Origin: Thelephora terrestris
Lineage: Eukaryota > Basidiomycota > Agaricomycetes > Thelephorales > Thelephoraceae
Reading direction: 5' to 3'
Assembly (NCBI GenBank): GCA_015956445.1
Contig: WIUZ02000003.1
Span: 1,984,001-2,048,000 of the forward strand
Length of the DNA: 64,000 nt
Both the position numbers and the translations under genes were made by a program. The notes under the pieces are model-generated. The model was not told where the DNA came from. It made no database searches and saw only the letters and a program-made list of their open reading frames with translations. Below are positions 13,110-53,071 of the stretch, one piece after another. How positions within the stretch are numbered: the first letter of the stretch is position 1; every line of letters begins with the position of its first letter.

Positions 13110-14422
13110 ATTCGATATAGGCCTCTGTACCTTTTCTTTGTGAATCCCTCGGCGTTAACCAGGTCGGAATTTTCTCCTGCAAAGGGCCCTGATCATCGCT
13201 GGGGGAAGTGAAGACACTTATCGTTGTGTGACGAACGTGGATGGGCGGGAAAAATCTCAGTTCTCTGGTTCACTGCTCGCAATCCTCGTTGAGCTCTGAT
13301 GTGGTGCCGGAACTCAACAGGGTAAGCACTGAAAACCACTGGCACCGAACAATGATGCGGTGTTAGGAACGGTCACATACACATTTTCGGCCTCGGTCAG
13401 CGCAGTACTGATCTGTGCCACTGAACAGACAAGTCAACAGCATCATTGTTCGTAAGTTTAAGTGTCCTACTGCTGCGATTCTGACCTTGGGTCAGATTTT
13501 GGGGCTCAGTGTTCGATATTCAGAATATTCAACGCCAGGGTCCGCTCGAAGAGGCGCTTGCTCTCCCCATCACAGTTGATTTCAACCGAACATTTACATG
13601 CACCGCACCCACTCCTATTCACCTGTGCAATCACCCCGTCATCGATGCAGTCCGGAACCCTCTTCAGCATGCACTCTACGTTGTCAAACCATAAGAAGGG
13701 TCGTTTCACACTCCAGACCTACCTGGACACCCCGTTGCGTGCAGAACCCTTCGAGATGAATCATTGACGTCTCACAAGCACAGGCCATTGAATGGTTGGC
13801 CGCTAATTAAGATGTTCCCTGGTGCTTGCGCCCGTTCACTCGAAGAATGTGCCGAGGGGGAGGGGGGCGGCCCGGTGGTCTGCCGCATCCACAACCCAAA
13901 GACTTTACCGGATACACCGCTCGCACTCGGGCGATTTTTTGCTGTGCCCTCTGAGGATCCTGTTCACGGAACCCTGACGTCTAGATTCTTCTCGCCGGCC
14001 GGGTGACCCATAGTGGGTAGTCGGCCATACGGCCCATGGCAGATAACATCAATGACGAATGTAGTTCTCCGGAACCACGAGCTCCCTAATGTATTGCGCA
14101 TACGCGGTGAAGGTGCGTCACCGCTCTCCTATTCATTCCGCATGGCCGATGTATTGACGTTGAAGTCATCAATGACGGCGAGAAGCCGTTTGTTCTCAGG
14201 CCCAGGTGTCCGTCGTTCAGTGTTAAACGTTGACCCCGCGGGCTGCGACCGACCTCTTTTCTCATTGGGTAGGATGCGCACTCTTAAGTCAGAGGAGTTG
14301 ATCATAACTGGTGATATTCACATACGTAGATCACAGGGGTTGGGGTGTCTATTTAAGCCTACCACCGACTGCCTCTATGACTTCTCCGACCTCCTACCCT
14401 GGTCATATCAACGACCCCAAGG
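13110..14422. other. Intergenic; distal part is a duplicated esterase promoter
   Basis: No convincing gene in 13110-13980. From about 14100 to 14422 the sequence matches the region upstream of the intact esterase at 31475 (for example the shared stretches near 14170 and 31290, and near 14330 and 31370), including a TATTTAAG box at 14350-14357 that corresponds to 31400-31407. This shows that promoter and gene were duplicated together. Confidence 0.6.
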
Positions 14423-14936
14423 ATGTTGCTCAACATGCTCGTGCTTCTTGGGACCTTCCTCCAGGTTGGTGTTCACGCCGCGGCGATCTCAAACAAACGT
14501 GACGGAGGCCCCGTGGTCACTCTGAGTTATGCAACGTTCGAGGGAGCTTCGTCGGGTGGAGTAGACTCTCGGGTGAGAGTGCACTAACTTGTGACTCTTT
14601 CAATCTAGTGTGGAAGCGCGACAAGAACATACTCTACCTTGGGTCTGTTCACACCGCTGACCTCGCTGAGGTGTATGGTATCACGGGTGATGATCACCTT
14701 GGCACGGATGCCCTCAGTGCGTCCATTTCCATACTTACACGATCCCTGCGATTGACGAGGATTGCATCAGTCAACTTCATCAATCATCAGGACCCCAACT
14801 ACCCGAAGGGTTCCACGGCATCGAGCCTACTGTCGAAGATCGCTTGGCCAAAATACACTGTCGACAGCAAGCAGATGTTGTTGTTCAGCGACAACGCCAC
14901 TGAAGAGTACACCACTATTCCCGACACCTACCGCGC
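14423..14936 (+). pseudogene. Carboxylesterase type B pseudogene, 5' piece
   Basis: Begins with MLLNMLVLLGTFLQVGVHA, a signal peptide nearly identical to that of the intact copy at 31475, then KRDGGPVVTLSYATFEGASS. At about 14568 the sequence jumps directly to the last intron and C-terminal exons of the family (WKRDKNILYLGSVH, then INHQDPNYPKGS and TVDSKQMLLFSDNATEEY). About 1.9 kb that hold the oxyanion hole, the nucleophile Ser and the catalytic Glu are therefore missing. The reading is then cut at TYRA by the 15.6-kb transposon; its 3' remnant is at 30539. Non-functional with two independent lesions. Confidence 0.93.
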
Positions 14937-15557
14937 TATGCTGTTCGGATTGTACAAAAATTAATCACGGCGATAATCGCGTGTTTTCACCAAAATTTCC
15001 CAGAGTTTCGTGGCATAAATCGCCATTGTCGACACTCTCCGTGAATGTCGTCAAGGATCGCTCGGATTGACGACAATCATTTCTTATCTCCGACTGTCGT
15101 TCACATATGCCGAGGACTTGCGATAATTGAATCAGACTTCCGTAACTCTGTCTGACTCACGGAATTCTATGCGGATTTCCGAAAGTCGGAAATTTTCGAC
15201 GACATTCCCTTTCCAAAAATTCAATAGTCACTATACCATTTGCGCGACTACATTACACTACGATTTTTTTTGTAATCGACTATGGTAGACTACGATTTTC
15301 CAACTGTCCTTATGGTTTTAGTAAAACTCTTTGGGAGTTTCACTTAGGCCGAGTAATATAAACTCCCAGTGGAAGTGTAAAATAATTCCTCACCTCCCCT
15401 GGGCTTGGGGCGGGTTTTACTATTTCCTGGGTGTATGTTATGTTATTCAGATATGTTATGTTTTGCCCATATGTTATGTTTTGACCATATGTCATATTTT
15501 CCCCATATGTTATGTTTTTTCCATATGTTTTTCCCCCCATATGTTATGTTTTTTCCG
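14937..15557 (+). repeat. Left terminal inverted repeat of the Ulp1-DDE transposon
   Basis: Mirror of 29918-30538 with no length difference. It contains smaller internal symmetries (around 15060-15110 and 15170-15210) and ends in a run of ATATGTTATGTTTT-type units that grades into the 18-bp satellite array. The near-perfect identity of the two ends suggests a recent insertion. Confidence 0.9.
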
Positions 15558-15680
15558 TATGTTATTTTTTCCAAATATGTTATTTTTTCCAAATATGTTA
15601 TTTTTTCCAAATATGTTATTTTTTCCAAATATGTTATTTTTCCAAATGTTATTTTTTTCCAAATGTTATTTTTTTTCCAA
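15558..15680 (+). repeat. 18-bp satellite array, left
   Basis: About five units of TATGTTATTTTTTCCAAA, then shorter variants. The same unit forms about ten copies at 29737-29915 and about nine at 21203-21353. At the right end of the transposon the array runs straight into TACTGTACCC..ACAACCAAAGCGGCA; on the left that junction is displaced to 21355. Confidence 0.85.
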
Positions 15681-17046
15681 ATACAGTAATTTCCAAATAC
15701 AGTAATTTCCAAATATGTTATTTTTCCAAATGTTATTTTTTTCCAAATGTTATTTTTTTCCAAATGTTATTTTTTTCCAAATGTTATTTTTTTTTTCCAA
15801 ATACAGTAATTTCCAAATACAGTAATTTCCAAATACAGTAATTTCCAAATACAGTAATTTCCAAATACAGTAATTTCCAAATACAGTAATTTCTAAATAC
15901 AGTAATTTCCAAATACAGTAATTTCCAAATACAGTAATTTCCAAATACAGTAATTTCCAAATACAGTAATTTCTAAATACCGTAATTTTAAAATACAGTA
16001 ATTTTCTAAAATTGTAATGTCCTTTATTCCAATGGTATGCATTCAAAAAAATCCTTTGCCTTTTCCACAACATAAAAGAATATGGTTCTGTTTGTAGTCA
16101 TGACCTAACCTAACCTAAACCTAACATATCGTAAACATAACATAACATTACAAAAATGTAATGTAAACCTAACCTAATGTGACATAACATCAACCTGACG
16201 TAAAGTGATGTAAAATAACGTAACATAATATAACATAATGTGATTTAAGCTAAGCTAATCTAACCTAACCTAACCTAACCTCATGCAGTCCACCTAACCG
16301 GAACTAAACCTGCATTGACTTTAGCCTACATAACTTTATCTTATCTCATCTGACCTAACCTCAACCTGACTTAACGTAACCTGGCCCAATTTCACCTGAT
16401 CATGTCCTGTTCAACCTCATCCTATGTGACCCATTTTACCCTCATCCAGCCTTATTCTAGAAGGACCTGACCCAACTTCACTGGTATGTGACCTGGGTTA
16501 TGGAAACACATTGTGGACCACACCCCATATTCTGCACCCACCCACCACTCAGGTGCACCTACCCTGCTGGACCTACAAGTTGGTGACCCATAAGTCAATG
16601 GACCTATAAGTCCATGGCCCACACCTATAAACGCATACGAGGCAGACTTGTCTGTCACCCATCACACCCACAGACCACTCTCACTCCATATTCCATGCCA
16701 GACTACTAGTTCACAACCACCTGGTTGGAGCCATAAATCCATAGGTGTCACGAACACGTGACATAGTGCGGAAAATCACACAAGTAATTCAAGATATTGG
16801 TTCTATTCATCGCCATAATAAAAGTACAAAGAGAGCCACAACAAGAATTAAACTAGGAGAAAAGGGGGCTCTTGACAAGCGCACCCCGAAGTGGAAATGC
16901 ACCAATGTGCAAAGTGGAGCGGATGATACACGCTCTGTGGACAGTACATATACTCTCTCGATACCGGATCCACCCAACACTCTCGACAACCTAGCACATC
17001 ATGATCTAACCCCTCACGCATCTCCTGTCGCACGCTCTCCAACCCA

Positions 17047-17718
17047 TCATTCACCAACTCGGACCCATACTTGTCCTGCAGCTTCACTATCTCCAGCTTC
17101 AGCCACATGCGAACTTGGCGAGCCTGGCTTGACGGGTGACACTGCTGTCCAGAACGAGTCATCGGACTCTTGCGCAGCTTCTTTGACGACCTCTCCACCA
17201 TCTGAGGAGCTGGAGCAGGACTCCAGGGAGGGGATTGAGGGAGAGGAACCCCCCGATCCCAGCGGAGTTGGAGGGACGACGGGGGAGGACTGAGGGGGGT
17301 CGGTGCAGTATGCTCCCCAACACTGGTGCCCGAAATATCGGAAGAGAGATGCCTGGAAAGGTCCCCAATGTTCCAGAGCAAAGTGAGAAAAGTCTTCATT
17401 AAGACTATTGATGATCATGTACATGAGGTCCACTCGTTGTTCCAACTTCAAGATCCTACGCTCCCTCTCTCGCTCCATGGCATCCAGCAAGAGGGAAGCC
17501 CCAGGAGGCCACGTAATTGTGCGGTTGGGGTCGTCGTATCCCGCCTGCTCCCAGAACTGTGGAGGAGCCTGATGGGCAGTCAAGAACTCCACGGCAACTC
17601 TGTTGTCATGGGCAATGTTGGCGGGGGTGTCGTACAGATGCTGTTCGATGTCGAAAGGGGTGGCGGCCTCATAAGGAGAGACGGAGACGAAAGGGGTAGC
17701 AGCACTGTTGAGGGACAT
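17047..17718 (-). CDS. Antisense reading frame in LTR-like unit, family 1
   Basis: Open frame on the strand opposite to the LTR promoter. It begins MSLNSAATPFVSVSPYEAA at 17718 and has a likely coiled-coil stretch (LLLDAMERERERRILKLEQR) and a Pro/Ser-rich end. A TATTTAGG box lies about 95 bases upstream on the same strand. Its position, near the outer end of the long U3 and antisense to the LTR, is the same as for the frame in family 2 (26250-27990). No recognised domain; part of a retroelement fossil. Confidence 0.4.
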   Translation of the reverse strand: MSLNSAATPFVSVSPYEAATPFDIEQHLYDTPANIAHDNRVAVEFLTAHQAPPQFWEQAGYDDPNRTITWPPGASLLLDAMERERERRILKLEQRVDLMYMIINSLNEDFSHFALEHWGPFQASLFRYFGHQCWGAYCTDPPQSSPVVPPTPLGSGGSSPSIPSLESCSSSSDGGEVVKEAAQESDDSFWTAVSPVKPGSPSSHVAEAGDSEAAGQVWVRVGE

Positions 17719-19499
17719 GATTTCGAAGATAGGTTGAGAGGGAATTGTTGTAGAATTGGTGGGAGTGGAAAAGAGACGATGAAGGGAAAAGACCAAGGAA
17801 CCCCATCGCCTAAATACATTCAGATCAATGGGACGCCTGAAAAGGCAACAACAATGCATCATTGTTCATTATTATCCCAAAGGGGATAAACGAACCCTCA
17901 GCCCCAATCGATCTCATCAATTTTGGAGAAACCCCCATTGATCTGGAGAAATCCCCATCACTCCTCTGTTGCTACCATGAAACCTGAGAATTCCCCATCA
18001 ATCATGGGAAATCCCCACTGTCCTTCTATTGCTACCACGAAACATGAGAAATCCCCATTGTACTCCTATTGACTCGTTCCCTATTGTTCCCCTAATTGTA
18101 GTTACCATCGATCGTCCTAAGTCCCACTTCCCTGACTCCGATACCCTGCCCTAAACTACGCACAGACCATGTTGACTCACATTGTCACAACATTGAAACT
18201 CCCAGTCTCCGATTCCTTCCTATTGGTCGTTCGACCCCATTGAGTTCCGGACTCTTCTTGGCCTCACAACTGCCTCGAGGCAACCTTCACCCTGATCACC
18301 AGACCGCCTCTATTGTTCCTCGGACGTTCTTCCCCGCTTCACATCTCCTCTCGGGAACCCTGTTTCGAATCCTCACGTTCTTCCATCTGCCACCCGCTAT
18401 CCGACCCTCCGGAACTCTGATATCCCCGACGCCTCGTTCCCCTCGCCTTTCATCCTCGTTTCGACCCTCATTCTAACCCTTCGCCACCGCTATCTATCGA
18501 TATCAATTCCTCCCGTTATCGATCTCCGGTTATCCCCTTGTTCTACGCTCTCGTCCCCACGATTCCTTATCGATCGGAACTTCCTGGTCAATCGATCAGT
18601 TCCATTCCCCGCGCCGTTCCGTTTGCCGGGCGTTCGCCTCCATTGCTATCTTCCGCTCTTGATTCCTGTTCCCCTGCGTCTTCTCCTGTATGACACGGCT
18701 TCCTCTCGTGCCGTCGTCACCCCTTCGTCATCGTCCCTGTAGTTACTCAGCCTTCGTCGTCGTTCCCCCCTAGTAGTTACCCCTCTTACCAAGTTCCTTT
18801 TAGTTTCGCTTTTCCGTTCCCCTTCTCTCTCACAGACTATCTCGACACTGCTTATTTAGGAGATTCTTCGGTTTCCTTTATATACTGTGTCTTAGATAGC
18901 CTGGAATGCATTGACTTAGATCCCCCAGTTCAGTTCCAGTCTGAGTTCTCCAGTTCCCCAGTTCACTCTCCAGTTTCTCAAGTCGAAGTTCTCGGCTTCT
19001 CTGTGTCTTATCGCTTGCTCCTACCAAAGCATACCGCAGCTACTTTACGACTTCGCGGTGATTCTCTATCGCAACTCTCCGCAACCTTGGTTCCTACCCC
19101 CCTCTGCTTTGTCTCAAATCTTGCGCTTTACTCTAGTCGTCGCGGTCTTCCCCGGCGATTCTTTGGACATCTGCGGGCATCTCTGAACAGATCTTCTGTT
19201 CCGGTGGTCGTACAGAACCCAACACTCAACCAGTACCCACCTCAACTGCTTGTCCACTCTTTCTAGGGTATCCGACTACCCGGAGTGTTCAGCTAGTTCA
19301 ACGTTTGACTCATTGTATGATTACTAATCATGTAGAGGGTTGGGTATATAAGGAAGAGCGTTCACTCCTTTCTTTTCCCCATTCTCAATCTCTTCTGTAC
19401 TCCTCTACCAACTGCTCAATAAACAAAGTAAGCTGAGGAATTCTCCTCACGCCTTACTCTTCATCTGACTCATTCAAGCAGGAATTCTCCTGCCAGTGT

Positions 19500-20141
19500 A
19501 TGTTCAGTGCTCCTAACCCCTTCCCTTCTACCAGTCCCATCCAGCGCCCGGTCATACCTGACACTAGGCGTTCCATCTGGGAGTATAAACTCATCAGGAG
19601 TCTCCAGCTTAATAGGACCTCCGGTCTATTAGCTCATCACCCTTATTACCACCCCTTCTCTGCTCTCGACGCCAGAGTAACTACTCCCCCATTCCTGCTC
19701 GGAGCTGATCATCAGTTCCTTTGGAAATCTGATCTTACTGAGAGCGTGCTCACCACTGTCTACTTCAGTATCAGTCCTTCCTTCTATTTCCCTACTCCTC
19801 GTGTTCACCTTACCACCAACGTTCACACTCACCGTCCAGCTATCATTGTCCTTTGGTGGGATATCCCTACTGATCTACCTCTCCCGGCTATAGAATATCT
19901 TACCAGCTTCGAAGAACTCAGCGGTCAAGACTTCGAGCTGTTCATTCAACACCTGGTTGAATTCTGCAGCGATTACAACTCGCCCATCCATCCTTATCAA
20001 TTTGAGTCTCCACTCGCGCTTGATATCCCTCCTCCTCTAGTTTCCACTCCAGGAACCCCCTTCTCCAAACACTGTCCCGACACTCCGTATTCCGCTAATC
20101 CTCTAGCGCCCCATAAACAGGAAGCAGGCCTTCAACCCTGA
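19500..20141 (+). CDS. Sense reading frame in the 3' part of the family-1 LTR-like unit
   Basis: Open frame of 213 codons whose stop overlaps the terminal CCCTGACA. It starts 150 bases behind the TATATAAG box. The product would be Pro/Ser/Thr-rich (MFSAPNPFPSTSPIQRPVIP) with no known domain. It may be a chance frame in a CT-rich region. Confidence 0.3.
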   Translation: MFSAPNPFPSTSPIQRPVIPDTRRSIWEYKLIRSLQLNRTSGLLAHHPYYHPFSALDARVTTPPFLLGADHQFLWKSDLTESVLTTVYFSISPSFYFPTPRVHLTTNVHTHRPAIIVLWWDIPTDLPLPAIEYLTSFEELSGQDFELFIQHLVEFCSDYNSPIHPYQFESPLALDIPPPLVSTPGTPFSKHCPDTPYSANPLAPHKQEAGLQP

Positions 20142-21354
20142 CAATAGGCCCACAAATCTATGAACCTGTAACCAGGTAGTGTACACCTGCCTTCAGCCTT
20201 TTGGTCAAGGTTGAGTTGTGGCCCATGGTCTGGCATGGAATATGGAGTGAGAGTGGTCTGTGGGTGTGATGGGTGACAGACAAGTCTGCCTCGTATGCGT
20301 TTATAGGTGTGGGCCATGGACTTATAGGTCCATTGACTTATGGGTCACCAACTTGTAGGTCCAGCAGGGTAGGTGCACCTGAGTGGTGGGTGGGTGCAGA
20401 ATATGGGGTGTGGTCCACAATGTGTTTCCATAACCCAGGTCACATACCAGTGAAGTTGGGTCAGGTCCTTCTAGAATAAGGCTGGATGAGGGTAAAATGG
20501 GTCACATAGGATGAGGTTGAACAGGACATGATCAGGTGAAATTGGGCCAGGTTACGTTAAGTCAGGTTGAGGTTAGGTCAGATGAGATAAGATAAAGTTA
20601 TGTAGGCTAAAGTCAATGCAGGTTTAGTTCCGGTTAGGTGGACTGCATGAGGTTAGGTTAGGTTAGGTTAGATTAGCTTAGCTTAAATCACATTATGTTA
20701 TATTATGTTACGTTATTTTACATCACTTTACGTCAGGTTGATGTTATGTCACATTAGGTTAGGTTTACATTACATTTTTGTAATGTTATGTTATGTTTAC
20801 GATATGTTAGGTTTAGGTTAGGTTAGGTCATGACTACAAACAGAACCATATTCTTTTATGTTGTGGAAAAGGTAAAGGATTTTTTTGAATGCATACCATT
20901 GGAATAAAGGACATTACAATTTTAGAAAATTACTGTATTTTAAAATTACGGTATTTAGAAATTACTGTATTTGGAAATTACTGTATTTGGAAATTACGGT
21001 ATTTAGAAATTACTGTATTTGGAAATTACTGTATTTGGAAATTACGGTATTTGGAAATTACTGTATTTGGAAATTACTGTATTTGGAAATTACTGTATTT
21101 GGAAATTACTGTATTTGGAAATTACTGTATTTGGAAATTACTGTATTTGGAAATTACTGTATTTGGAAAAAAAATAACATTTGGAAAAAAATAACATTTG
21201 GAAAAATAACATATTTGGAAAAAATAACATATTTGGAAAAAATAACATATTTGGAAAAAATAACATATTTGGAAAAAATAACATATTTGGAAAAAATAAC
21301 ATATTTGGAAAAATAACATATTTGGAAAAAATAACATATTTGGAAAAAATAACA

Positions 21355-21866
21355 TACTGTAACCGCACGACCAAAGCGGCAATGGCAATTGCCGGGGGCA
21401 CTGACAAGCGCCCGTGTACCTGCCGGCAATTTTCGCGCTGACAGTTGACCCTGGGGGCTGCCGGCAAACCTGGTGATGACGATCCGGGTTGCCGGCAATT
21501 TTTTTGATGGGGACCCGCGAGCGCCGGAAGGACTGCGGGTTCTGGGGCCACGTCAGCGGCATCAATAACCGCTCGTGACGCGGCCTCCAGTTCCAGCGGG
21601 TAAAAAGGCTGTCGCATGGATGGGTCTGGCAGTTACTTGGCTGCCAGGCCATAATTTGCTTAATTTCAGGCAATAATAAATATATGTAGTGTATATTAGA
21701 TACATAGAAGTGCAATGAAACAATTAATAGGCCCAGGGCTACATTTTTAACATACAGAGCTGGAGTTTCCGCCGCACAATTGGCAGGCATGTTCTTATCT
21801 TGATCGCCCTTCTTTCTCTCTCACTCAACCCATCCACATCTTGTCTCATTCATTTGCCCACTGTGC
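21355..21866. other. GC-rich subterminal segment of the transposon
   Basis: Starts with TACTGTAACCGCACGACC..AAAGCGGCA, an imperfect inverted match to 29710-29737 at the other end of the element, so it is the inner limit of the original left TIR. It contains several copies of TGCCGGCAA (21372, 21419, 21460 and 21489 regions); related GGCCGGCAAACCTAGTGATGAC is found at about 29683. No gene seen. Confidence 0.6.
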
Positions 21867-22400
21867 TTGACCCTGGAACTTGACTTGGGGCTTTATCTAC
21901 TGGCTCTGGACCACTTCTGTTGTACTAGCTTCAGATTCTGCTCTCACCTGCTTCACCACATCAAGTTGGAAGCGTCCTCTCAGCTCCACCCTCTCCCATC
22001 CTATTGCTGGATTGTGCTTGACTGTGGTACTTGTTTTGAGGCTTTGATAACTGATGTTTGCCTGATTCTGTTATCCCAGCTCAGGTTCCCCTCTCACCTG
22101 CTGTACCACAGTGGTGGAACTGTCCTCTCAGCCTCATCTTCTCCCACCCTGCTGCTGGTTGGGCTTGACTCTGGTACTTGTTTGGAGGTCTTGATCATTT
22201 GTGTTGACCTGATTCTCTTACACCAGCTTAGGTTTTTCTCCTACTGCTTTCACCACATCAAGTTGGAGGTGCCCCCAGCCTTATCCAGTTGCTGATTGTA
22301 CTTGACCTTGGTATGTGCTTGTGAGGCTTTGACCATTGAAACTGGCCTGATTCAGTTACACTAGGTCCTTCTTCCCACTCTCTTCACCACTCCTATCCCC
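21866..22400 (+). repeat. Tandem repeat (~137-151 bp unit) upstream of the transposase gene
   Basis: Four diverged units begin with CTTGAC at about 21866, 22017, 22164 and 22301. Each contains a CTTG-A-T-TGG-ACTTG opening, a CACCTGCT/CACCACA middle and a CTCTCAGC end. The last is shortened and runs to within about 20 bp of the ATG at 22422. It could be the promoter or a transposase-binding region. Confidence 0.7.
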
Positions 22401-22421
22401 CTTCTACATTCTCTCTTCAAG

Positions 22422-24876
22422 ATGTCATCCCCAATTGATTTGACAGAGGAATTAGAAGACCAGCTTCCACCTGATGTCCTAAACAACTGGCTCCCCATCA
22501 GGGACAAATCTGTTTTCCACCTTTTTACATTCAACCAATATCCAGCCAACAAAACCGGTTATGCAATGCCTCTGGACTTTGCCCCTGTGCTACATGAAGA
22601 AGTTATCATGGACTTCGACTACACCACACTTCCCCAACTAAGCCTTCCTGTTGATTCTTCAGTCAGAGAAGCTTATCACACAGCGATTAAATCCGCCAAA
22701 CACCCAGTCCATTCAATTACCCTTGTACCACATCCTGGACCCGGAGACCCAGTCACTCTGCCTACCTGGGTCTTCCACTACTGGAGGGAGATAGAGCTAG
22801 CAGCATCATACCGAGAGCAGTGGAAGACTGCCCTAGTATGGTTGCAGTCATACTCAGACTCACCAGTGACAGGGAACTGCTGTCAGGAGCTCTTGATGGC
22901 GCTCTCCTTCTTCCCCTGGTCTGGCAACAACGCATCCATCAAAGACATCACCTCCCTCCTTTCAGAGGACCCACCAAAGTCCTACCTCAGTGATTTCCAT
23001 ATCAACTACATGATTGGACAAATTTCAGACCAGCATCAAACCTTTCGTGGGCTAGAGTTTTCCGGACGTCATATCCTCACAACTTCATATGTCCTTGCAA
23101 CCATCACAACATTCTATGGCAATAGACGTACACCTGTTAAGGACGGGAACCTTCTTTGGTACCAACTTATGGGGATTGAGAACCAGATCATACAGGGGAA
23201 GGTTGACAGTGTTGGTGGGGTCCTCCACCTTCCACTACACTGGGTCTCAGTCGTTTTCGACTTCCAAAAATGGTGCATCCTCTATGGTGACTCACTTAGC
23301 CAGCCATTGCCAACCACACAGCATACTGCATTTACCCGCTGGATCAAACACCTCAGGAGTAGATCTAATTTGGATGCAGTTCCTGTCCCAGTCCACATAC
23401 TACCCACTGGATGCCAGGATGATGTTGCTTCATGTGGGCTTTTTGCGTTGAATGCTATTCGCCATCGTTACCTGGACCATCCACTACTGGCTTCCGACCT
23501 GATTTCTCTAGTCCATAATCGGATGGAGATTACATTAGATCTCCTCCACACAAATATGGTATGACTTTCTTTAGTATAATATTATGCTCAAACTAATGAA
23601 CCCAACAGACTGCCAAGATGGACAATGATATTGTTGTCACAGATTTTGACTTCCTCTCTCTCCCAACTTTTTTTCCACCTGCCACTCAGCCACAACCCCA
23701 TGATAGTGGATCCCAATTACCACTAGACTATCCTCTCTACCCACCTCCTCCTATCACCTACTCTGCTGGTTACACCCAGGATGCCTTTGCCTGTGACGAT
23801 CCTGAGTGGCCAACTGCAATGGAAATTACCCCAGCAGAACCACACATCCTCCACAGCAATGATTTTTCTACCCCTGGTCACTCTGACTCAGACATGGCTT
23901 ATCCCCCCTCCTCTGCTGTGCACTCAGAACTGAATTCTGCAGCAGCTTCAGAATCTGATTTCCCATCTGCGGTGGTTTCAGAGCCTGATCTCCTATCTGT
24001 GGTAGCTTCAGAGCCTGATCTCCCATCTGTGGTAGCTTCAGACCCTGAACTTCTAGCTCCACCTAGAATCAAGCAACCCAGGCTCCAGACACAATCTGGG
24101 ATCCACAACTTCTTTCGAGTTTTGTCTGAAGATGAGGCACAGGCTATGCGGGCAAAGCGGAAAAGGGCTGACTCTACAGGAGAATTTGATCCAGTGGAGC
24201 ACTGGAATAGAAAGCAGGAGAAGAAGCTCATTCAAAAACGAGAGCGAGATCGTATCCATCAGCAGAACCATCGGTTGAAGCTTAAGAAGATTGAGATTAG
24301 GGATGGTGTCAGGGACAGTGATGGAGAGTTGATCAAGGTAAGTCAATCTTTGAGTGTTTGCTTTATATGATAGAGACTTCACCATCTCTTAGACCATGAC
24401 AAAATCCAACCAGGAAGTCCAGCCTCCAGCTCGTGCTGATGTTGCTGCCATCTCACACCCCAGAAAAGCGGTTGTGGCAAATTTAAAGCAACAGAAGGCA
24501 AAAAAAGCTGGTAAGGTCTACAAATCAACCAAGGAAGAATCTACCCCTCCCATATACATCAACTGGAAATCCCCAGCCTTCTTTCCTTTCTTTGATGTTG
24601 TTGTAACACGGAAAGTCAATGGCAAACATCTCTGGGACCACTTTCAGTGCCGAGACTCCTTTGTCATGAAGTTCTTACGGATGGATATGAAGTGGTCACT
24701 CCGCCGCGCAACTCGCCCTGGAAAGAAGATCCCCAATGACATCCTACAAATCCTCACAGACACATTCCTACGGTTTTCCTGGTCAATCTCCAAGTTCCAC
24801 ATCAAAGCTGTATTTGTGGTCAACTCTGATCAGACTCTGGTCTACTTCTCAGCTGAGTCTAAGAAGACCTATGATC
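22422..24876 (+). CDS. Ulp1-like protease-DDE_1 transposase, 5' part
   Basis: Exon 1 (22422 to about 23562) encodes about 380 residues with a C48/Ulp1-like cysteine-protease core: LPLHWVSVVFD (His), WCILYGDS (Asp), TGCQDDVASCGLFALNAIRH (Gln and nucleophile Cys). Splicing of a 50-bp intron (GTATGA...CAACAG, about 23563-23609) joins it in frame to exon 2 (TAKMDNDIVVTDFDF), which has four short SEPDL-type repeats (ASEPDLPSVV) and a very basic stretch (RAKRKRADSTGE to QNHRLKLKKIEI). A second intron (about 24340-24393) leads to exon 3, a DDE_1 N-terminal region with a helix-turn-helix-like part and the first catalytic Asp (VVNSDQTLVYFS). The frame is cut after TYD by the LTR-like unit at 24877; it resumes at 28179. 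Confidence 0.82.
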
Positions 24877-27800
24877 TGTCAGGGCCACTCTACCCCAACA
24901 ACTACCAGTTCACTGAGCCGACTCCGCAGAGTACTCACTAGTCCAACTAGTTTGAGAGAGAACGATCACGTCTCTTTTCTTCCGGTAGGTTGTCCGAGGT
25001 CACTACAAGTCAGGTCGAAATCCTAAAGAGAAACCCAACCTAAACCGCACTTCGTTCGGTTTAACAAACAAGGGTTGATCCCTACAACAGGATTTGATGA
25101 CTCCACCAGTTGATCGACTGGACGCTCGAGGTGTTCTAATATGACTGCTGGGAGTCTATAGTTACGAGGCGCAGTTGACGCGCAGAGCGGGAGGGAGAGC
25201 AGATGGGATGTCTTGGATCAAACAAGAAACTCTGACTTGTCCTTAACTGCAACTGGGCTGAGAAGGGCAGAGGATTTCCTGAGGTAACAAAACTAAGGTA
25301 CTACGATACAGCCACAGTTGCTACTTATACTAAAGGAGTGGCCATGACGTCAATACCCTAATATACCCTTATCAAGTCCAGAACAAAGGGAGATAAGGAG
25401 TGTGAGAACGCTAAGTAAGGGAAGCGAACAAAGATGACGCGTGGGAGAATAAAGACAAAGGGCCTTACTAGCGTGTGAAGGATTGCATAAAAGATAAGGA
25501 ATGTCCGCATGAAACATAGGGGTGAAGATAACACTAGTCCTAAAAGAAAAAGGGGCATGGGTCATGAAAGTTCGTACCTGGGGATCACACCCAAGGGTCA
25601 GGTGGCAATCTCCCTTTACATAGTTGTACCAGCGGATTCGGGAGTAGAGCCATGCAAACATCCCTTGTTGTCTGTAGGCGGTAACAGCATCACGGACTAG
25701 TGGCAACCTCAACGTACGTCCGAACATGAGGAGGTCGAGCCTAGACTCATGGGACATGAGGGATTACAGATTCGCCGGCGTTTCACGCTAACGGCTACTC
25801 CACATTCGCTGAGCTAAACAAAAGGAGTCTAAGGCACTCCTTCCGAATAACGGCGATTCCTTTCTCCAGTTAGGAGACTGTGATGTGACTGTCCACGTGT
25901 GTGATCAGGGTCCAGGGTTGATCGTAATCGTAAAGTCATGAGGGGTCGTAAAAGGGGTTCGTGATGTCATGAAGGGGTCATCAGGGTCTTGAGACCTATT
26001 TTTAGTGCGCGCGCGTTCTAGGCGTTCCGGAACGAAGTTCTTCCAAGGCCGTCCCGCGGGCCGAGGTGTCAGCTTGATGTAGTAAGCCAACGATGATGTA
26101 CAGGGGCGGAAGTTGATGTGACCCGGACCAATGAGGTTCGTCGAGGTAGGTCACGTGAAGGATCACCGATCTAGGCTATAAGAAGGACGTCTTCTTGGAG
26201 CCATCCTTGATCAGCAACACCAGCAACTTCCCCATCATCTTACCAAAACATGTCCTTCCCCAACAACCATACCTACAAAGTCGCCAATGGTATCTCCACC
26301 ATTTCTCGCATCAACCGTCGTGCCGCCACTCGCAAGACCTACGCCTGTGCAGCTAGGACTCCCTATATCACGGATGACCAGGTTTGGGGGAGACCTAGAG
26401 CTTTTGAGTGCTAGCACTAACGCCTTCCTCTAGGTAGAGGTTCGTTCTTTCGGGCGTTGATGTCCAGCTAACGGCTTCTAGATCTTGGAGGTCATCACGG
26501 AAGTGGACACCGAACGTCTCAGGGAGACGATGCCTCATTTGATGGGGTTGACCTGGGATGACGAGCTCTGGGTCCGTACAATCATCGCCGAGAAGGTGGC
26601 CTTCCGAATGAGGGGTAGGTTCGGGGAGCTGGAGCATCCGATCAAGAAGGAGCTCTGGTACACCCTGCAGAGGGGAATCTACGATCAGGACCTATTGGAG
26701 CACGGAGCAACCGTTCCTCGGGCCGTTTGCCATGCCACTGCCGCCACGTCGTTGTTGTGGTCGCTCGTTCGAGAGGGGGAAAGCCGGGTAGGTTTTCCGT
26801 CTGAATATTCGAGTATGACTCTCGACTAATCAGACTGCCTAGGTGGAACGATTGGAGCGGGAGGTGAAGGAAGCGAAGGCAGACGTCCTTCGTTTGTCGG
26901 CGGAAGGTCTTCAGATGAAGGAGACCTTGGCAGCCTTTCAACAGGGAACGAACGAAGCGTTGGAGGCAATGGTAGCCAATCATCAAGAGTTGATCGCCGG
27001 GTTGAAGGTTAGGGATAACAACATCAAGGGGGCTTTGGCCAGGAGGGATGAAAAGGTAGCTTTCCTCATCTCGAAGACGAAATGAGGGAAGCTGACACTT
27101 CTTCTAGACCGAGGAACTAGAGAACGTGGTGGCCGTATTGACAGCGCAGGTTGAGTCCTTACAGGACAAGACCTGCAACTGCAAGGAGGGTCCCAAGTTG
27201 GTTGGTCAGGGGACCGCCGATGTTCCGTTCGAGTTGGAGTACGCCGACGAGGTGGTACTCCCATCGCCTAACCCGTCGTCCTATGCGACGCCTCCAATCG
27301 AGAACGCGGTTCCCGTTCCGACTCCTGGTCCGGCTTCCACTCTGGCCGCTTCCGACAAGGAGAACTGTGGGCGCTGCGTCTTGCAGCCAATCCATCAGTT
27401 GGTGAAGATCGAGGATGAGGTCATGGAGGTGGACCGAGCCGAGGATGCTCCGAGGGTCGCCGAGGTACGTCCGGTGACTAAGGGGCAACGTTGCAAACGC
27501 TCTCGACGCCGTCCTGCTCATCGCATGGCTCCCTCGGCTAACCCTTATCCTCGACCAGTTGAGTCGGATGGTGACCTCTCTGGTCGAGGTGAGGAGCGAG
27601 GATTCCGATATCGGGTCCACCGTCCTTACCGACAGGTCGAGTCCGAGATCCAACTCCGACACCAGCTTCGCCTCGCAAGACAGGATCCCACCCAGGGGTC
27701 CGATGAGGGAGACGGAGGGTCGCTTGCCGACTACGTCGATAGTGCTGCCGAGCAGTCACCCGGTGATGGAGATGTGGGACCAGGTGTTCCGCAGTTCGGT

Positions 27801-28173
27801 GACATCTGGGAGGCTGATCGGTCCGCTCGAAGGCATCTCTTCTTATCGGCTTGAACTAGTCGTTCAGCTGAGTGCTGAAGATGGTGACGCCATGTTCGGG
27901 GAGGTCCTAGCGAGGAGGGGCCAGCACTACGATCTCCGAGATGGACGTTTGATGACCTTCAGGCCTGCCGTAGATAGAGTCGACTTTTGATGGGATTGGG
28001 ATAGCACTTGTATAGCTCGTTGTGGATTCGCTGGGAATAGTACGCGCGTGTGTGTGTTTCGAATGATTGGTGTGAAGGATAAGGAGAGTGAATCATTCAA
28101 ACATAAGAATTGGTAAGAAGAGTTTGAAGAAAGAGCGTGTTATAAAAAGTTTAAAAATACCATGTTCCTGACA
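24877..28173 (-). mobile_element. Solo-LTR-like unit, family 2, copy 1 (fossil, 3,297 bp)
   Basis: Bounded by TGTCAGGGCC on the left and GTTCCTGACA on the right, with the 5-bp target duplication TGATC (24872-24876 and 28174-28178). The same 3,297-bp unit occurs at 58912-62208 with a different duplication. It has TG...CA ends and no second LTR or gag-pol inside. In the minus direction a TATAAG box (25329-25325) is followed by about 450 bp to the end, as in an LTR with a very long U3. A spliced antisense gene lies in the U3. It looks recent, since the two copies differ by only a few percent. It inserted in the transposase gene of the DNA transposon. Confidence 0.75.
26250..27990 (+). CDS. Antisense coiled-coil gene in LTR-like unit, copy 1
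   Basis: A TATAAG box at 26177 precedes the ATG at 26250 (MSFPNNHTYKVANGISTISR). The region reads as several exons separated by short GT-AG introns (for example about 26381-26481). It includes LTWDDELWVRTIIAEKVAF, a predicted coiled coil (VERLEREVKEAKADVLRLSA, then MKETLAAFQQ), a second helical stretch (ENVVAVLTAQVESLQDKTC) and a long acidic/Pro-rich linker. Two overlapping frames stay open near the 3' end (27126-27854 and 27559-27990), so the true terminus is unclear. No known domain. The same gene is present in copy 2 with few differences. It belongs to a retroelement-like unit. Confidence 0.6.
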
Positions 28174-28178
28174 TGATC

Positions 28179-29273
28179 CCATTGGAAGCAAACAGGTCGA
28201 GGTAGTTGGCCTAGATGAGCGGCGTGGATTTACACTCATGGTGGGAGTCTCAATGAGTGGAGAAGTAATTCCATTCCAGGCTATCTACCGTGGGCGGTCA
28301 CCGGCTTCCCTCCCTTCACCCTCTGCTCCTGGATACAAGAAAGCTACTCAAGAGCTCAAGTTTCAGTTTGAATACTCTAGAACTGATAACCACTGGTCAA
28401 CAATCAGGACGATGAAGAGCTATGTTACTGATATCCTTGCACCATACTTCGAATCCCACAGAAAGCAGCTCAAGCTCCCCAACCAAATATGTATTTGGCA
28501 AATCGACTGCTGGTCAGTCCACAGATCCCTTGAGTTCCGGAGCTGGATGGACGTAGCATATCTGTGGATTCGCATTCACTTTGTTCCAGCCAATTGCACT
28601 GGCTTGTTTCAGCCATGTGATGTTGGAATCCAGCGAATACTCAAGTTAGCAATCAAGCGATCTGCTCTCAGTGACATTGTGGACCACACCATGGTTCAGC
28701 TGAACTCAGGCATCACACCTGACCAGATTGCCTTTGATAAGCGAATGGGGGTGGTTCGGGATCGTTCAGTGATGTGGTTGATCAATGGGTATATGGCTAT
28801 TAACAATCCAGAAATTATTCAAAAGGTACCCTTAATGCAATTATACATTTAGAGCACTTACTCATTTCATCTTCTAGGCTTTCAGGCTCTGTTCAACTGG
28901 AGAAGAGGACTTCAACCTCTCATATGACTCTTTAACAAGTGAAGAGGCAGAGGTGGCACTTGTAGAACGGATGAAACATCAAGAGTTCATGGACACACTT
29001 CAAAAACCAGAGGCTATTGGGATGGAAGATGACAATGGCAATCTTCCTAACAATCAGGAAGATAATCCCATCATATGTGATGAAATTGACTCATCTAGGA
29101 CTATGGCAGAGGAGATAGCCAATTTTATGGCTGTTGGTGTAGCAGATGAGATCTCAGAGAAAGATGAGGTATGTGTTGGAACAGACCTATCACAATTCAT
29201 TGGGCATGAGTTCTCTGTACAAAATGCCACAACAGCGTGGATGAGTTGGGATGCAAAGGGAGCTTCTATGTAG
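28179..29273 (+). CDS. Ulp1-like protease-DDE_1 transposase, 3' part
   Basis: Continues the DDE_1 domain in the same frame as exon 3: KQVEVVGLDERRGFTLMVGV, GEVIPFQAIYRGRSPASLPS, then the second catalytic Asp in ICIWQIDCWSVHRSLEFRSW and the third in NCTGLFQPCDVGIQRILK. All three acidic residues of the pogo-like DDE/D triad are therefore present across the gene. An intron (about 28827-28877) leads to a last acidic exon stopping at 29271-29273. Removing the LTR-like unit with one duplication copy leaves the frame uninterrupted, so its insertion is the only visible lesion. Confidence 0.85.
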
Positions 29274-29389
29274 GTCAAGCAGTAGCAAGTAAGATATGAT
29301 TTGTCCCTCATGTAACTAGTAATGAAAGGGTTGTGGAACTTGCAATCACAAGTAATGGATGTTAAAACCCTAGGACAGGGGAAAAAATT

Positions 29390-29700
29390 GAGCGCATGGA
29401 TGATAAGACTCTGTGGGGGTGGAAAACCCAAAAATTACCAATCACAGGATCTTATGGGGGCAAAATGACGATCACAGGGTCCTATGGGGTAGAAAAACCA
29501 AAAACTACCGATGACAAGGCCCTATGGGGCAGAAAAACCAAAAATTACTGATGACGACGCCCTACGGGGTGGCAAAACCAAAAATGACCGATGACGACAC
29601 CCTATGGGGCGGCAAAACCAAAACTGACTGACAAAAAAATTTATGGGGGCGGCAGAACCAGCAATGACGGCAAAATGATGAGGGCCGGCAAACCTAGTGA
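29390..29700 (+). repeat. Minisatellite downstream of the transposase gene
   Basis: About six units of roughly 45-50 bp built on CCTATGGGG-GGCAAAACCAAAAATTACCGATGAC, with progressive variation, between the transposase stop and the right satellite array. Confidence 0.65.
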
Positions 29701-29736
29701 TGACCGCTGACTGCCGCTTTGGTTGTGTGGGTACAG

Positions 29737-29915
29737 TATTTGGAAAAATAACATATTTGGAAAAAATAACATATTTGGAAAAAATAACATATTTGGAAAA
29801 AATAACATATTTGGAAAAAATAACATATTTGGAAAAAATAACATATTTGGAAAAAATAACATATTTGGAAAAAATAACATATTTGGAAAAAATAACATAT
29901 TTGGAAAAAATAACA
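29737..29915 (-). repeat. 18-bp satellite array, right
   Basis: About ten near-perfect AACATATTTGGAAAAAAT units that join the right terminal inverted repeat; counterpart of the array at 15558 and 21203. Confidence 0.88.
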
Positions 29916-29917
29916 TA

Positions 29918-30538
29918 CGGAAAAAACATAACATATGGGGGGAAAAACATATGGAAAAAACATAACATATGGGGAAAATATGACATATGGTCAAAACATA
30001 ACATATGGGCAAAACATAACATATCTGAATAACATAACATACACCCAGGAAATAGTAAAACCCGCCCCAAGCCCAGGGGAGGTGAGGAATTATTTTACAC
30101 TTCCACTGGGAGTTTATATTACTCGGCCTAAGTGAAACTCCCAAAGAGTTTTACTAAAACCATAAGGACAGTTGGAAAATCGTAGTCTACCATAGTCGAT
30201 TACAAAAAAAATCGTAGTGTAATGTAGTCGCGCAAATGGTATAGTGACTATTGAATTTTTGGAAAGGGAATGTCGTCGAAAATTTCCGACTTTCGGAAAT
30301 CCGCATAGAATTCCGTGAGTCAGACAGAGTTACGGAAGTCTGATTCAATTATCGCAAGTCCTCGGCATATGTGAACGACAGTCGGAGATAAGAAATGATT
30401 GTCGTCAATCCGAGCGATCCTTGACGACATTCACGGAGAGTGTCGACAATGGCGATTTATGCCACGAAACTCTGGGAAATTTTGGTGAAAACACGCGATT
30501 ATCGCCGTGATTAATTTTTGTACAATCCGAACAGCATA
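29918..30538 (-). repeat. Right terminal inverted repeat of the Ulp1-DDE transposon
   Basis: Inverted copy of 14937-15557; ends ...CCGAACAGCATA at 30538, directly before the CCGCGC target duplication. Confidence 0.9.
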
Positions 30539-30593
30539 CCGCGCCGCTGCTATCGATACCATCATGGAGGTACAAGCGGCTTTGGGACAGTGA
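30539..30593 (+). pseudogene. Carboxylesterase pseudogene, 3' remnant
   Basis: Carries on exactly where 14936 stopped, with the CCGCGC target duplication, and reads DTIMEVQAALGQ then stop, like 33880-33930. The following 130 bp (to about 30725) match the 3' flank of the intact copy at 33931-34070, which proves this was one gene before the insertion. Confidence 0.92.
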
Positions 30594-31474
30594 AACTTTC
30601 TTCTCTTTCTCTCAAATTTTCGAACGGGTTTACCCCCATCAGCGGTCGGACATCTGCGTTTTCCATTCACGATCTGTTTCCCACGGGAAATTTTGATACA
30701 CAGACTATCCGGATCTCAAGCAATATACGGTTTCTGGTGTATATGCGTACTTCCAGATATCTGCGGTTGACTTTGAAGGACTTCCGCCTCCAACGCTAGG
30801 TGAGGTTTGAATGGCCCTGGAGTCAGTCCTTGTGCGAGTGACAAACCGATCGGTTTCTAACTCGCGAAGGCATTCTGCAAGGGCATTTACTCTCGTGCAT
30901 CTGAAGTTCACCGTTTCGAGATTACTTTTTGCGATTCAAAGTTCATTGTGTGAACACTGCAGGATCAACAGCTCCCGGAGCATCTTTCCCAAATATAACG
31001 GGGAAAATAAGCCGAAAGGACCCCATCCGCCGGTTAAACCGTGCCGGAACGGACCAGGGCAAACGCCCAGTGTGCGTGTAAGAGGGCTCGATACGCATGG
31101 ATGTGATCACCTGTTGGAAAGGCCGTGGTGTCAGTGGGAGGGTTGAATTCCCGACTCAAACTCCGGAGACAAAAATTGCGAGTGTGGGAAGATCTCACCG
31201 TTTTACACTGCGCACGGCTTTCACGAGCTCCCTCGTGTATTCCGCATACTCGGTGACACATGGCCGATGTGTTGTCTGAGTCATCAATGGCGGCGAGAAG
31301 CCGCTTGTTCTCAGCCCCAGCCCCCCTTTTCTCATCGGGTCAGAGAAGTTGATCATAAATGTTGATGGTCACATACGTGGATCATAGGGGTTGGAATGTT
31401 TATTTAAGCCTACCACCGACTGCCTCTATGGCTTCTCCGACCTCCTACCCCTGGTCATATCAACGACCCCAAGG
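30594..31474. other. Pseudogene 3' flank and promoter of the intact esterase
   Basis: 30594-30725 is the former 3' flank of the broken esterase. 30725-31200 holds no gene I can support. About 31200-31474 is the esterase promoter, similar to 14100-14422, with TATTTAAG at 31400-31407, about 70 bp before the ATG. Confidence 0.6.
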
Positions 31475-33930
31475 ATGTTGCTCAAGGTGCTCGTACTTCT
31501 CGGGACCCTCCTCCAGGCTGGCGTTTACGCCGCAGCGATTTCAAACAAACGTGACGGAGGCCCCGTGGTTGGTCTAAGTTATGCAACGTTCCAGGGAGCT
31601 TCGTCGGGTGGGGTAGAGAGTTTCTTGGGCATTCCCTATGCCCAACCTCCAGTCGGGAACCTCCGATTTCGTCGTCCTCAACCCCCACTTCCTTCGTCCG
31701 ATACCAAACTCGTGAGTGATCTTGTAGTACATTGCGGAGATTTCCCGGTGATCTTTGTCTTTGATTGCTTCCCTTCTTTCTGTCAGGCCACAACATATGG
31801 AGATGCTTGTCTCCAACAGAGCTATACACTACCTATTGTTTCGGGCATCAATTACACTGTACTGGCCGGATTTTCCACAAAGGCCAATGCCTCTGAAGAC
31901 TGTACGTGCCTTTTTGTTGACGTTTGAATTGGCACGATCGTAAGACAAACTTTGATCACAAATTCAATCTTGCAGGTCTGTACGCAAATGTGGTCCGCCC
32001 TGCCGGTGTCACAGAACAAAGCAAACTCCCGGTTGTCGTTGTGAGTACTTGACCTGTGCGGTCTGTGATATCCTAGTGGTCTCTGAACTAGTATTGCAAG
32101 TGGGTCTATGGCGGTGCTTTCGCTGTTGGTGACGGATCTACCTATGATGGCACCACCGTCGTACAACGTTCGGTCCAGCTTGGGGAACCGGTCATCTATG
32201 TAAACTTCAACTACCGTTTGAATGCTTTTGGTTTCCTCGGCGGAAAAGAGGCTCTAGCGGGAGGAGCTGCGAATATCGGCTTATACGATCGTGAGTGTCA
32301 CCTCCATAATCAAGGTCTCTGACCGTTCCTCCTTCGGCCTCGCTGACAGATGAATCACGGTTTTACAGAAAGGTTCTTCCTGGACTGGGTCAAGACTTAT
32401 ATCTCCAAGTTCGGTGGTGATCCGAACCAGATTACCGCGTGAGTTTGGTTCAGCGTAGCTACTGCGTCGCCACTGACCGCCCGCATTGCGCGCTCCGCAC
32501 AGATGGGGTCAGAGCGCAGGGGCTCTCTCAGTCAGCATCCACATTCTCACGAACCCCACGAACCCTCCCTTTAATGCCGCTATCCTGGTACGCGTTCGCG
32601 AATCCGAAAGCCAGTTTTTTCACCGCTGACAGCCTTGATTCGTAGCATTCAAATTATGCGGGCGCGATCTTCAAGACCGATAGCCAGAAATTCCAAGCCA
32701 TCTACGATCAATTGGTTCAGTTCACCAGATGTAACTCAGCCCTGGACACCTTGGAATGTCTCCGAGCTGTCCCATATGCCACCCTTGCAGATGCCGTCAA
32801 CAATACACCCTCATTCTTGTCTCCTAATGGATTGGATCTGACCTGGGTCCCCAGCATCGACGGAGAATTCCTACAGAAGTCTCTGAGTGACTACCTTAAT
32901 GAGGGATCCTATGCTAGGATACCGGTTCTGGGTGGTCAGGTTGATGATGAAGGAACGTGAGTCCGGTCCTCACTTCTCCCAGGCCTCGTGAAGATGTGAT
33001 GTTCAATGGTTACTCTGTTATTTTTCTAGATTCTTCTCTCTTAACAACAGCCAGTCGATCACGTGGGTTCTCTAGCACGCTTACCAACTGACCACACCGT
33101 TTCACACTTTCCTTTTGTAGCACTGATGCCGAAGTCAAAGCCTTCATGAAGGCACACCTCTTCCTTGGAGCTACCGATGCTCAAGTCGACCTGTTGGCCA
33201 GCAAGTATTCCCAGGATCCTGCTGCAGTGAGCTACTCTACCCGAGCTCTCGAAACCTCCTTCCGACTGAGTTCTCCTAGGGCTCTCCATTTGGTACCGGA
33301 AACCTCAGTGATTTCACGTGAGCCCAATCACTCCTCTCATACTGACAGTTTGGGGTTGATACATCTAAACCACAGTCCTGAATTCAAGCGCCTGGCCGCT
33401 ATTCAGGGTGACACGGTCATGCAATCAGGTCGTCGTCTCGCGTTCTCCAAGTGGGCCACTACCCAGAACATTTGGTCATTCCGTTCGTCCCCCCGCTTTC
33501 AAACGGTCGTTTTCTGGGCGAATGCACTAACTTGCGACTTTTTCAACTTAGTGTGGAAGCGTGACAAGAACATACTCTACCTTGGGTCTGTCCACGGTGC
33601 TGACCTCGCTGAGCTGTACGATATCACTGGTGGTGATCACCTTGGCGCGGATGCTGTCGGTGCGTCCATTTTCCTTCTTTTATATGATCCCCGCGATTGA
33701 CGAGGATCACATCAGTCAACTTCATCAATCATCAGGACCCCAACTACTCGAAGGATTCCACGGCCTCGAGCGTGCTGTCGAAGATCGCTTGGCCAAAATA
33801 CACCGTCGACAGCAAGCAGATGTTGCTGTTCAGCGACAACGCCACGGAAGAGTACACCACTATTCCCGACACATACCGCGCCGATGCTATCGATACCATC
33901 ATGGAGGTACAAGCGGCTTTGGGACAGTGA
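31475..33930 (+). CDS. Secreted carboxylesterase/lipase type B
   Basis: Alpha/beta-hydrolase of the cholinesterase/carboxylesterase family, probably secreted and acting on lipid or xenobiotic esters. The signal peptide is MLLKVLVLLGTLLQAGVYA. Then come the family start FLGIPYAQPPVGNLRFRRPQP, the oxyanion-hole region WVYGGAF, FNYRLNAFGFLGG and the nucleophile elbow AWGQSAGALS (GQSAG instead of the usual GESAG). The acid is in GGQVDDEGT and the catalytic His in LYLGSVHGADLAELY. The end IDTIMEVQAALGQ stops at 33928-33930. About ten short introns with good GT-AG ends are needed. All catalytic residues are present. Paralogues lie at 14423 (dead) and 53072 (intact, opposite strand). Confidence 0.9.
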
Positions 33931-34461
33931 AAACGTTCTTTTCTTTCTTATCAATTGTCGAACGTGTTTACCTCCATCGGCGGTCGGACGTCTGCGTTTT
34001 CTGTTCACGAATTGTTACCCACGAGAACTTTTTGACACACGTACTGTCAGAATTCCAAGTAATATTTGATTGGATGTAGTACTCGCCGATTTGCCTGCCT
34101 GCTGTAAAACTCTACAATCGTGAGGCATAGGGTATAAACTGTTTTCCAAGATACCAGAAAACAGGATGCATCAGAACCTATTATGAATTGCGCGCCGAGC
34201 GATATAACCCACAGTACTTACATGCCGCGTTTCAGTACCGTCAAAACATCAACAGATGTTTTAATCTTTTGGAAGGAGGTTTACTGAAACACCAATACTT
34301 ACTTGCTATACGCGGAAGACTTCTGGGAGGAGCGTGGGTACACTTTTCAAATACGGGACGGTAAGTGGCCCGTGCGTGCCAGCGCCCACCCTGGGCTCGC
34401 CCCGAAGGATCAGACCATCACCGTGCATGTTTCACCCCCTCCACTTCCACCGGATAAACCG
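33931..34461. other. Esterase 3' flank and NLR upstream region
   Basis: 33931-34070 is the esterase 3' flank (repeated at 30594). The frame of the NLR is open upstream to 34303, so an alternative start there is possible. Nothing else seen. Confidence 0.5.
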
Positions 34462-52814: not shown

Positions 52815-53071
52815 GCGTGGATAGTTCTCGGGGTCACCCAGAGGGTCAGCGAGCGTGACAAGAACTTAACCGTGGGATGGTGGCGATCGACGGATCGGAT
52901 ACGTTCATCAATGTTCAACGTTGATTTGATGTCCAAATGCGTGCACACAATGTCACGGGTTCAACACGGTCTGGGCGATTTATTGCGAAACGACTTCGGT
53001 ACTCAAGTACCACTGAATGCAGACACTTCTTTAGGAAAATGACTCGAAAATTGGAAGAGAAGTCCCCTTTT
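52815..53071. other. Short gap between the FunK1 gene and an esterase
   Basis: FunK1 promoter and esterase 3' flank; no other feature. Confidence 0.4.

Follow-up and report, generated by a model that had tools for sequence, protein, structure and literature searches.

A window of 64,000 nucleotides from the fungus Thelephora terrestris (contig WIUZ02000003.1, positions 1,984,001 to 2,048,000; coordinates below are those of the window) holds a transposable element of mixed identity at 14937-30538. Its ends resemble those of IS3EU, and its transposase is of pogo type and apparently fused to a SUMO-type peptidase. This combination is real for the copy studied here, and it is unexplained. The account we lean towards, with confidence a little above even, is that of a fungal cut-and-paste transposon with a DDE_1 transposase, a fused Ulp1 domain and a target duplication of about 6 bp, originally about 6.5 kb long and enlarged by two other events. 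More tentatively, and with somewhat less than even confidence, we propose that it stands for a fungal lineage in which an N-terminal Ulp1-like SUMO peptidase is fused to a pogo-type DDE_1 transposase, with 6-bp duplications and TA..TA ends. One copy, at one insertion, was seen in the window, and the claim rests on that copy.

The element ends, TATGC..GCATA, belong to terminal inverted repeats (TIRs) that pair without mismatch or indel over 705 bp; the sequence-only reading had described indel-free repeats of about 620 bp, and they prove longer still. Past a large block in its left part (see below), the element resumes at 21354 with ATACTGTAACCGCACGACCAAAGCGGCA, which mirrors the right TIR at its inner edge. 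The features of the ends are as follows.

14937-15641, plus strand: left TIR, 705 bp identical to the right TIR, starting with TATGCTGTTCGG, its inner portion being an 18-bp tandem array
29834-30538, minus strand: right TIR, perfect over 705 bp
29737-30041, minus strand: right subterminal tandem array of the 18-bp unit TATTTGGAAAAAATAACA, about 17 copies
21354-21381, plus strand: innermost 28 bp of the original left TIR, pairing with 29712-29739
29712-29739, minus strand: innermost part of the original right TIR

The 28-bp inner edges lie on either side of the gene, with an ungapped score of 19 against a maximum of 14 in 60 shuffles. We also considered, and rejected, the idea that the DDE_1 gene is a transposon in its own right, nested here with TIRs of its own. 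The best match between its flanks (21354-22421 and 29274-29740) is this same inner TIR edge and the next scores 10; since no other inverted match between the flanks exceeds the shuffles, nothing sets the gene apart as a nested element.

The gene itself is predicted to run in one frame from 22422 to 29273 once a 3.3-kb insertion is excluded, with frame continuity across that insertion counted by eye. Its parts are:

22422-23558, plus strand: predicted exon 1, Ulp1-like peptidase (PF02902), with the motifs HW, GD, Q and SCG in order
23609-24337, plus strand: predicted exon 2, a linker with the PIP-box-like motif QSGIHNFF (24092-24115) and a basic region
24393-24876, plus strand: first part of predicted exon 3, for the transposase N-terminus; the presumed first catalytic Asp has its codon at 24828
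28179-28825, plus strand: predicted exon 3, second part, DDE_1 (PF03184), with the presumed second and third catalytic Asp at codons 28505 and 28619, 37 residues between them
28878-29273, plus strand: predicted exon 4, including the stop codon

Both domain calls made by the sequence-only reading were upheld by Pfam. The Ulp1-like peptidase matches PF02902 with E = 4.4e-7, above the curated cut-off, and its HW, GD, Q and SCG are presumably the catalytic motifs of this peptidase type. The transposase matches PF03184 with E = 3.1e-9 (37.1 bits for a cut-off of 22), and this part contains NSDQT, QIDCW and QPCDVG. The linker motif QSGIHNFF is a match to the PCNA-interaction (PIP-box) motif. The predicted introns (50, 55 and 52 nt) all have GT..AG borders, and because they are all in phase, protease and transposase are most simply read as one fused protein rather than as two genes.

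The Pfam scan covered all 15 open reading frames (ORFs) of at least 170 residues in the element and shorter ones only in part, so that a short or intron-split gene could escape it. PF02902 and PF03184 are the only families above their curated cut-offs in these 15 ORFs. NCBIfam gave only weak, unrelated matches (best E 0.026), PHROGs a single match at 0.088, and a sequence search of the PDB with the DDE_1 piece no match. No relatives came to light in viral contigs, whether the query was an exon piece (two used), the DDE_1 ORF, a degenerate transposase motif (two used) or the opening 30 bp of the TIR; 14 pattern matches arose in one of these scans, none of them a relative by tblastn. Two loci in genome contigs were judged to be chance matches, with stop codons close to the motif and a best tblastn E of 0.089 over five query pieces.

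What was duplicated at the target? The insertion lies in an esterase-like repeated unit. Its left flank (14577-14936) is 89.5% identical to 33520-33881 and its right flank (30535-30726) 84.5% identical to 33872-34065, while a third, reverse copy (53499-53121) shares 74% identity with 14570-14936. A COesterase Pfam match (PF00135) lies at 31388-31927; the C-terminal stretches of the unit have no Pfam match. The filled and empty sites are:

14931-14936, plus strand: left target-site duplication CCGCGC, with alternatives of 7 bp (ACCGCGC, from 14930) and 8 bp (TACCGCGC, from 14929)
30539-30544, plus strand: right target-site duplication CCGCGC, with alternative starts at 30538 or 30537
33876-33881, plus strand: paralogous empty site 1, CCGCGC once
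53121-53126, minus strand: paralogous empty site 2, CCGCGC once

The sequence-only reading had claimed an exact CCGCGC duplication together with an empty-site paralogue. CCGCGC does stand on both sides of the element and is single at both of the esterase-like paralogous sites in the window; the length is less sure than claimed, the repeat extending to 8 bp. Alignment of filled and empty sites, a check suggested in that same reading and run within the window, gave 6 bp as the most symmetric solution, with 7-8 bp also fitting. How the ends are read sets the length: TATG..CATA gives 6 bp, TATG..CAGCAT 7 bp and TATG..CAGCA 8 bp. On these alignments the duplication would be 6-8 bp, and 6 bp is favoured because it leaves symmetric ends, TATG..CATA. 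With 6 bp, the TA that precedes CCGCGC in the target would coincide with the element end by chance. A duplication of TA only was also considered and rejected as very unlikely: the element would then start with CCGCGCTATG, and its first six bases would have to agree with the target by coincidence, at odds of 1 in 4096. The window contains three esterase-like paralogues (14141-14936, 31259-34065 and 53069-55611); the first apparently lacks its middle, and the transposon sits near its end.

Nesting inflates the size to 15.6 kb, and more than half of the span is made up of other insertions. Two components account for it:

15557-21353, strand unassigned: inserted or rearranged inverted-repeat block of 5.7-5.8 kb, its left edge ambiguous within the 18-bp array (15557-15642)
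15557-16703, plus strand: left arm of the block, the array plus 681 bp of unique sequence with 1 mismatch in the unique part
20228-21357, minus strand: right arm of the block, an inverted pair with the left arm
24877-28173, plus strand: 3297-bp insertion TGTCAGG..CCTGACA, interrupting the transposase gene; the other copy lies at 58912-62208, minus strand
24872-24876, plus strand: left duplication TGATC of this insertion
28174-28178, plus strand: right duplication TGATC of this insertion

Without both, about 6.5 kb is left (6513 or 6598 bp, depending on where the left edge is placed). The single 15.6-kb transposon of the sequence-only reading thus gives way to a smaller element that holds an inverted-repeat block and an insertion that has a 5-bp duplication of its own and occurs once more in the window.

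The arms of the block are 95.8% identical over 1154 nt, and its array ends are TATG..CATA. Since the 18-bp array is common to the block and to the element's own TIR, the two are probably related. Its ORFs of at least 170 residues have no Pfam match above the curated cut-off; TAACC-type short repeats occur inside it, at about 16103-16281. The outer TIRs differ at 0 of 705 positions and the inner unique arms at 1 of 681 (Fisher p 0.49), which does not separate the order of events. Another origin for the block is possible, although we would not bet on it: the left 6.4 kb (14937-21353) may be a related non-autonomous element, short of its final 500 bp, that faulty gap repair fused to the autonomous element at ATA/CTGTA; no separate element would then have inserted. 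The shared 18-bp array, a right end of the block that has no terminal unique TIR part and the absence of a visible duplication around the block are all consistent with this; a plain insertion into a tandem array, however, would hide its duplication too. Such an origin concerns the block only and is compatible with the account we favour, so that the two do not compete.

The 3.3-kb insertion falls between the codons of the presumed first (24828) and second (28505) catalytic Asp. Its two copies are 150 substitutions and 28 gap columns apart, and the second has a 5-bp duplication of its own, AAAGA. TG..CA ends and 5-bp duplications are like those of long terminal repeat (LTR) elements. With no long internal direct repeat or LTR pair, the insertion is no complete LTR retrotransposon, but it could represent a solo LTR or else some non-autonomous derivative. 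No Pfam match was found in its four scanned ORFs.

From these features we can sketch how the element may have worked. It would have landed close to the end of a decayed paralogue of the esterase-like type, duplicating 6 bp (or 7-8), and would have carried one gene, for a Ulp1-like cysteine peptidase joined to a DDE_1 transposase. The transposase would bind the long TIRs and, probably, also the subterminal 18-bp units, cut at the TA..TA ends and join them to target strands with a stagger of about 6 bp. Presumably the Ulp1 part desumoylates a host or transposase target; through the PIP-like motif the protein could be linked to PCNA. Enlargement would then have come from the inverted-repeat block, probably derived from a related non-autonomous element sharing the 18-bp array, and from the TG..CA element that split the transposase gene. 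The present copy is now dead: no functional transposase is expected from it, and it could move only with the help of another copy.

Several points weigh against this account. Only one copy was seen, and the window has no further end of the family at up to 4 mismatches in 20 bp. The exact flanking repeat is the 8-bp TACCGCGC (14929-14936 and 30537-30544), so that the 6-bp figure depends on the symmetry of the ends, and 7 or 8 bp fit the sequence as well. The N-terminal part of the transposase has no Pfam match even at E up to 10, and the Ulp1 match spans only profile positions 90-188 of 217. A sequence search of the PDB with exon 1 returned three matches, none significant (RNase H2 subunit C at 0.38 and 0.43; SENP2 at 0.75, over residues 268-295), and the AlphaFold model of exon 1, built from a single sequence, had a mean predicted local distance difference test score (pLDDT) of 32 and was not used. 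No flanking duplication is seen by eye around the block, which may have arrived by transposition or by rearrangement. Finally, the published DDE_1 transposases of the pogo group make TA, TAA or TAAA duplications (PMC7386202).

The transposase invites comparison with the pogo superfamily (Fot, Tigger, Lemi and others). The DDE_1 domain is shared, and the 37 residues between the last two presumed Asp lie within the DD29-56D catalytic spacing reported for the superfamily (PMC7386202). The same source gives lengths of 1.2-5.2 kb, and TIRs of 392-856 bp in some insect elements only; our element, by contrast, has a 6-8-bp repeat, measures about 6.5 kb and carries Ulp1 at the N-terminus, a domain that goes unmentioned in the main text of that paper. 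Its Table 1 lists CENP-B_N and HTH_Tnp_Tc5 DNA-binding domains for pogo-derived proteins (PMC7386202); exon 2 and the first part of exon 3 match neither in Pfam at E up to 10, although divergence could hide such a domain.

It is unlikely, though this is the strongest of the competing explanations, that these are the termini of an IS3EU-type element, mobilised in trans by the integrase-like transposase of another copy, with the Ulp1-DDE_1 gene a passenger or captured. IS3EU elements are described with TA..TA ends in every case and usually a 6-bp duplication (PMC10045372); those of rust fungi that carry TET have TAYGG..CCRTA and 6 bp, and IS3EU elements bear further genes (PMC12730594); Styx of Zymoseptoria, an IS3EU relative, also makes 6-bp duplications (PMC10853768). 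Our element resembles IS3EU and GingerRoot in its TA..TA termini (GingerRoot mostly), in its duplication if this is 6 bp, and in being a kilobase-scale fungal element with extra genes. If the ends are symmetric they read TATGCTG..CAGCATA and the duplication is CCGCGC, yet 8 bp are repeated at this one insertion, and at 8 bp the main support for an IS3EU shell is lost. The fifth end base (TATGC) also differs from the TAYGG of the rust elements. IS3EU and GingerRoot transposases are related to IS3 and retroviral integrases, whereas the sole transposase match here is DDE_1: none of the 15 ORFs has an rve-type (integrase) Pfam match, although a non-autonomous copy could do without one, and none has an alpha-kinase or TET/JBP match. 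Moreover, the original TIR edges frame the DDE_1 gene directly. The sequence-only reading had held that no superfamily it could name would fit. This calls for correction: TA..TA ends with 6 bp are published marks of IS3EU and GingerRoot (PMC10045372 and PMC12730594), although the transposase seen here is of the pogo and not the IS3EU type.

It is improbable that the duplication is 8 bp and the ends slightly unequal, on the pattern of KDZ (Zisupton, Dileera, Kyakuja) or hAT transposons. TACCGCGC is exact on both sides, and 8 bp is reported for Zisupton, an element of the Dileera lineage and, usually, hAT (PMC12730594). Such a reading, however, implies ends (TATGCTG..CAGCA) that differ by two bases, even though the perfect TIR runs on through those bases, and no hAT- or KDZ-type Pfam match is found in the 15 ORFs. 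We prefer a DDE_1 lineage with 6-bp duplications over both the IS3EU shell and the 8-bp element. One intact element of 15.6 kb is very improbable and we reject it: TIRs and duplication do enclose the whole span, but the two internal blocks have repeat structures of their own, and one of them, with its 5-bp duplication and second copy, splits the transposase gene. The least credible candidate is a Polinton or Maverick, a group known for large size, long TIRs, an adenain-like, Ulp1-related protease and genes for DNA polymerase B, integrase, ATPase and capsid; no match to any of these four is found in the 15 ORFs, and the size here is due to nesting. We reject it although the 6-bp duplication is the published Polinton value (PMC10045372).

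Ulp1 domains do occur on DNA transposons, namely Ginger1, where they are fused to the transposase, and Mutator-like elements (PMC2836005). Ginger1 has a Gypsy-type integrase, a C-terminal Ulp1 or OTU domain and a 4-bp CCGG/CCGT duplication (PMC2836005); here, Ulp1 is N-terminal to DDE_1 and the repeat is 6-8 bp, unlike Ginger1. Among the papers listed by our literature search (open full texts, few subscription journals; apart from the papers cited here, judged by title and the opening of the abstract), there was no recognised Ulp1-DDE_1 fusion or DDE_1 lineage with 6-bp duplications. Dada elements make 6-7-bp duplications and insert into small-RNA genes. The length may fit Dada; the target here is the end of an esterase-like coding region, and this comparison covers duplication length and target.

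Elsewhere in the window, 56742-57580 is a long imperfect palindrome of 839 nt, 85.7% identical to itself in reverse complement. It contains 58-bp tandem units, relatives of which also occur at 62812-63103, and it looks like a foldback repeat or one of the miniature inverted-repeat transposable element (MITE) type. The window also holds a DUF6535 match (40821-42290) and a member of the fungal kinase family PF17667 (50140-52030), both typical of Agaricomycetes, in agreement with the sequence-only reading.

The length of the target duplication is generally taken as a mark of transposon superfamily. A pogo-type transposase between IS3EU ends would be either a hybrid between two superfamilies or a case in which insertion chemistry truly changed within the IS630-Tc1-mariner group. 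If the change is true, a pogo-type catalytic core can shift from TA targeting to a 6-bp stagger, converging on IS3EU-like ends, and a SUMO protease fused to such a transposase would extend the unexplained link between SUMO/ubiquitin proteases and transposition.

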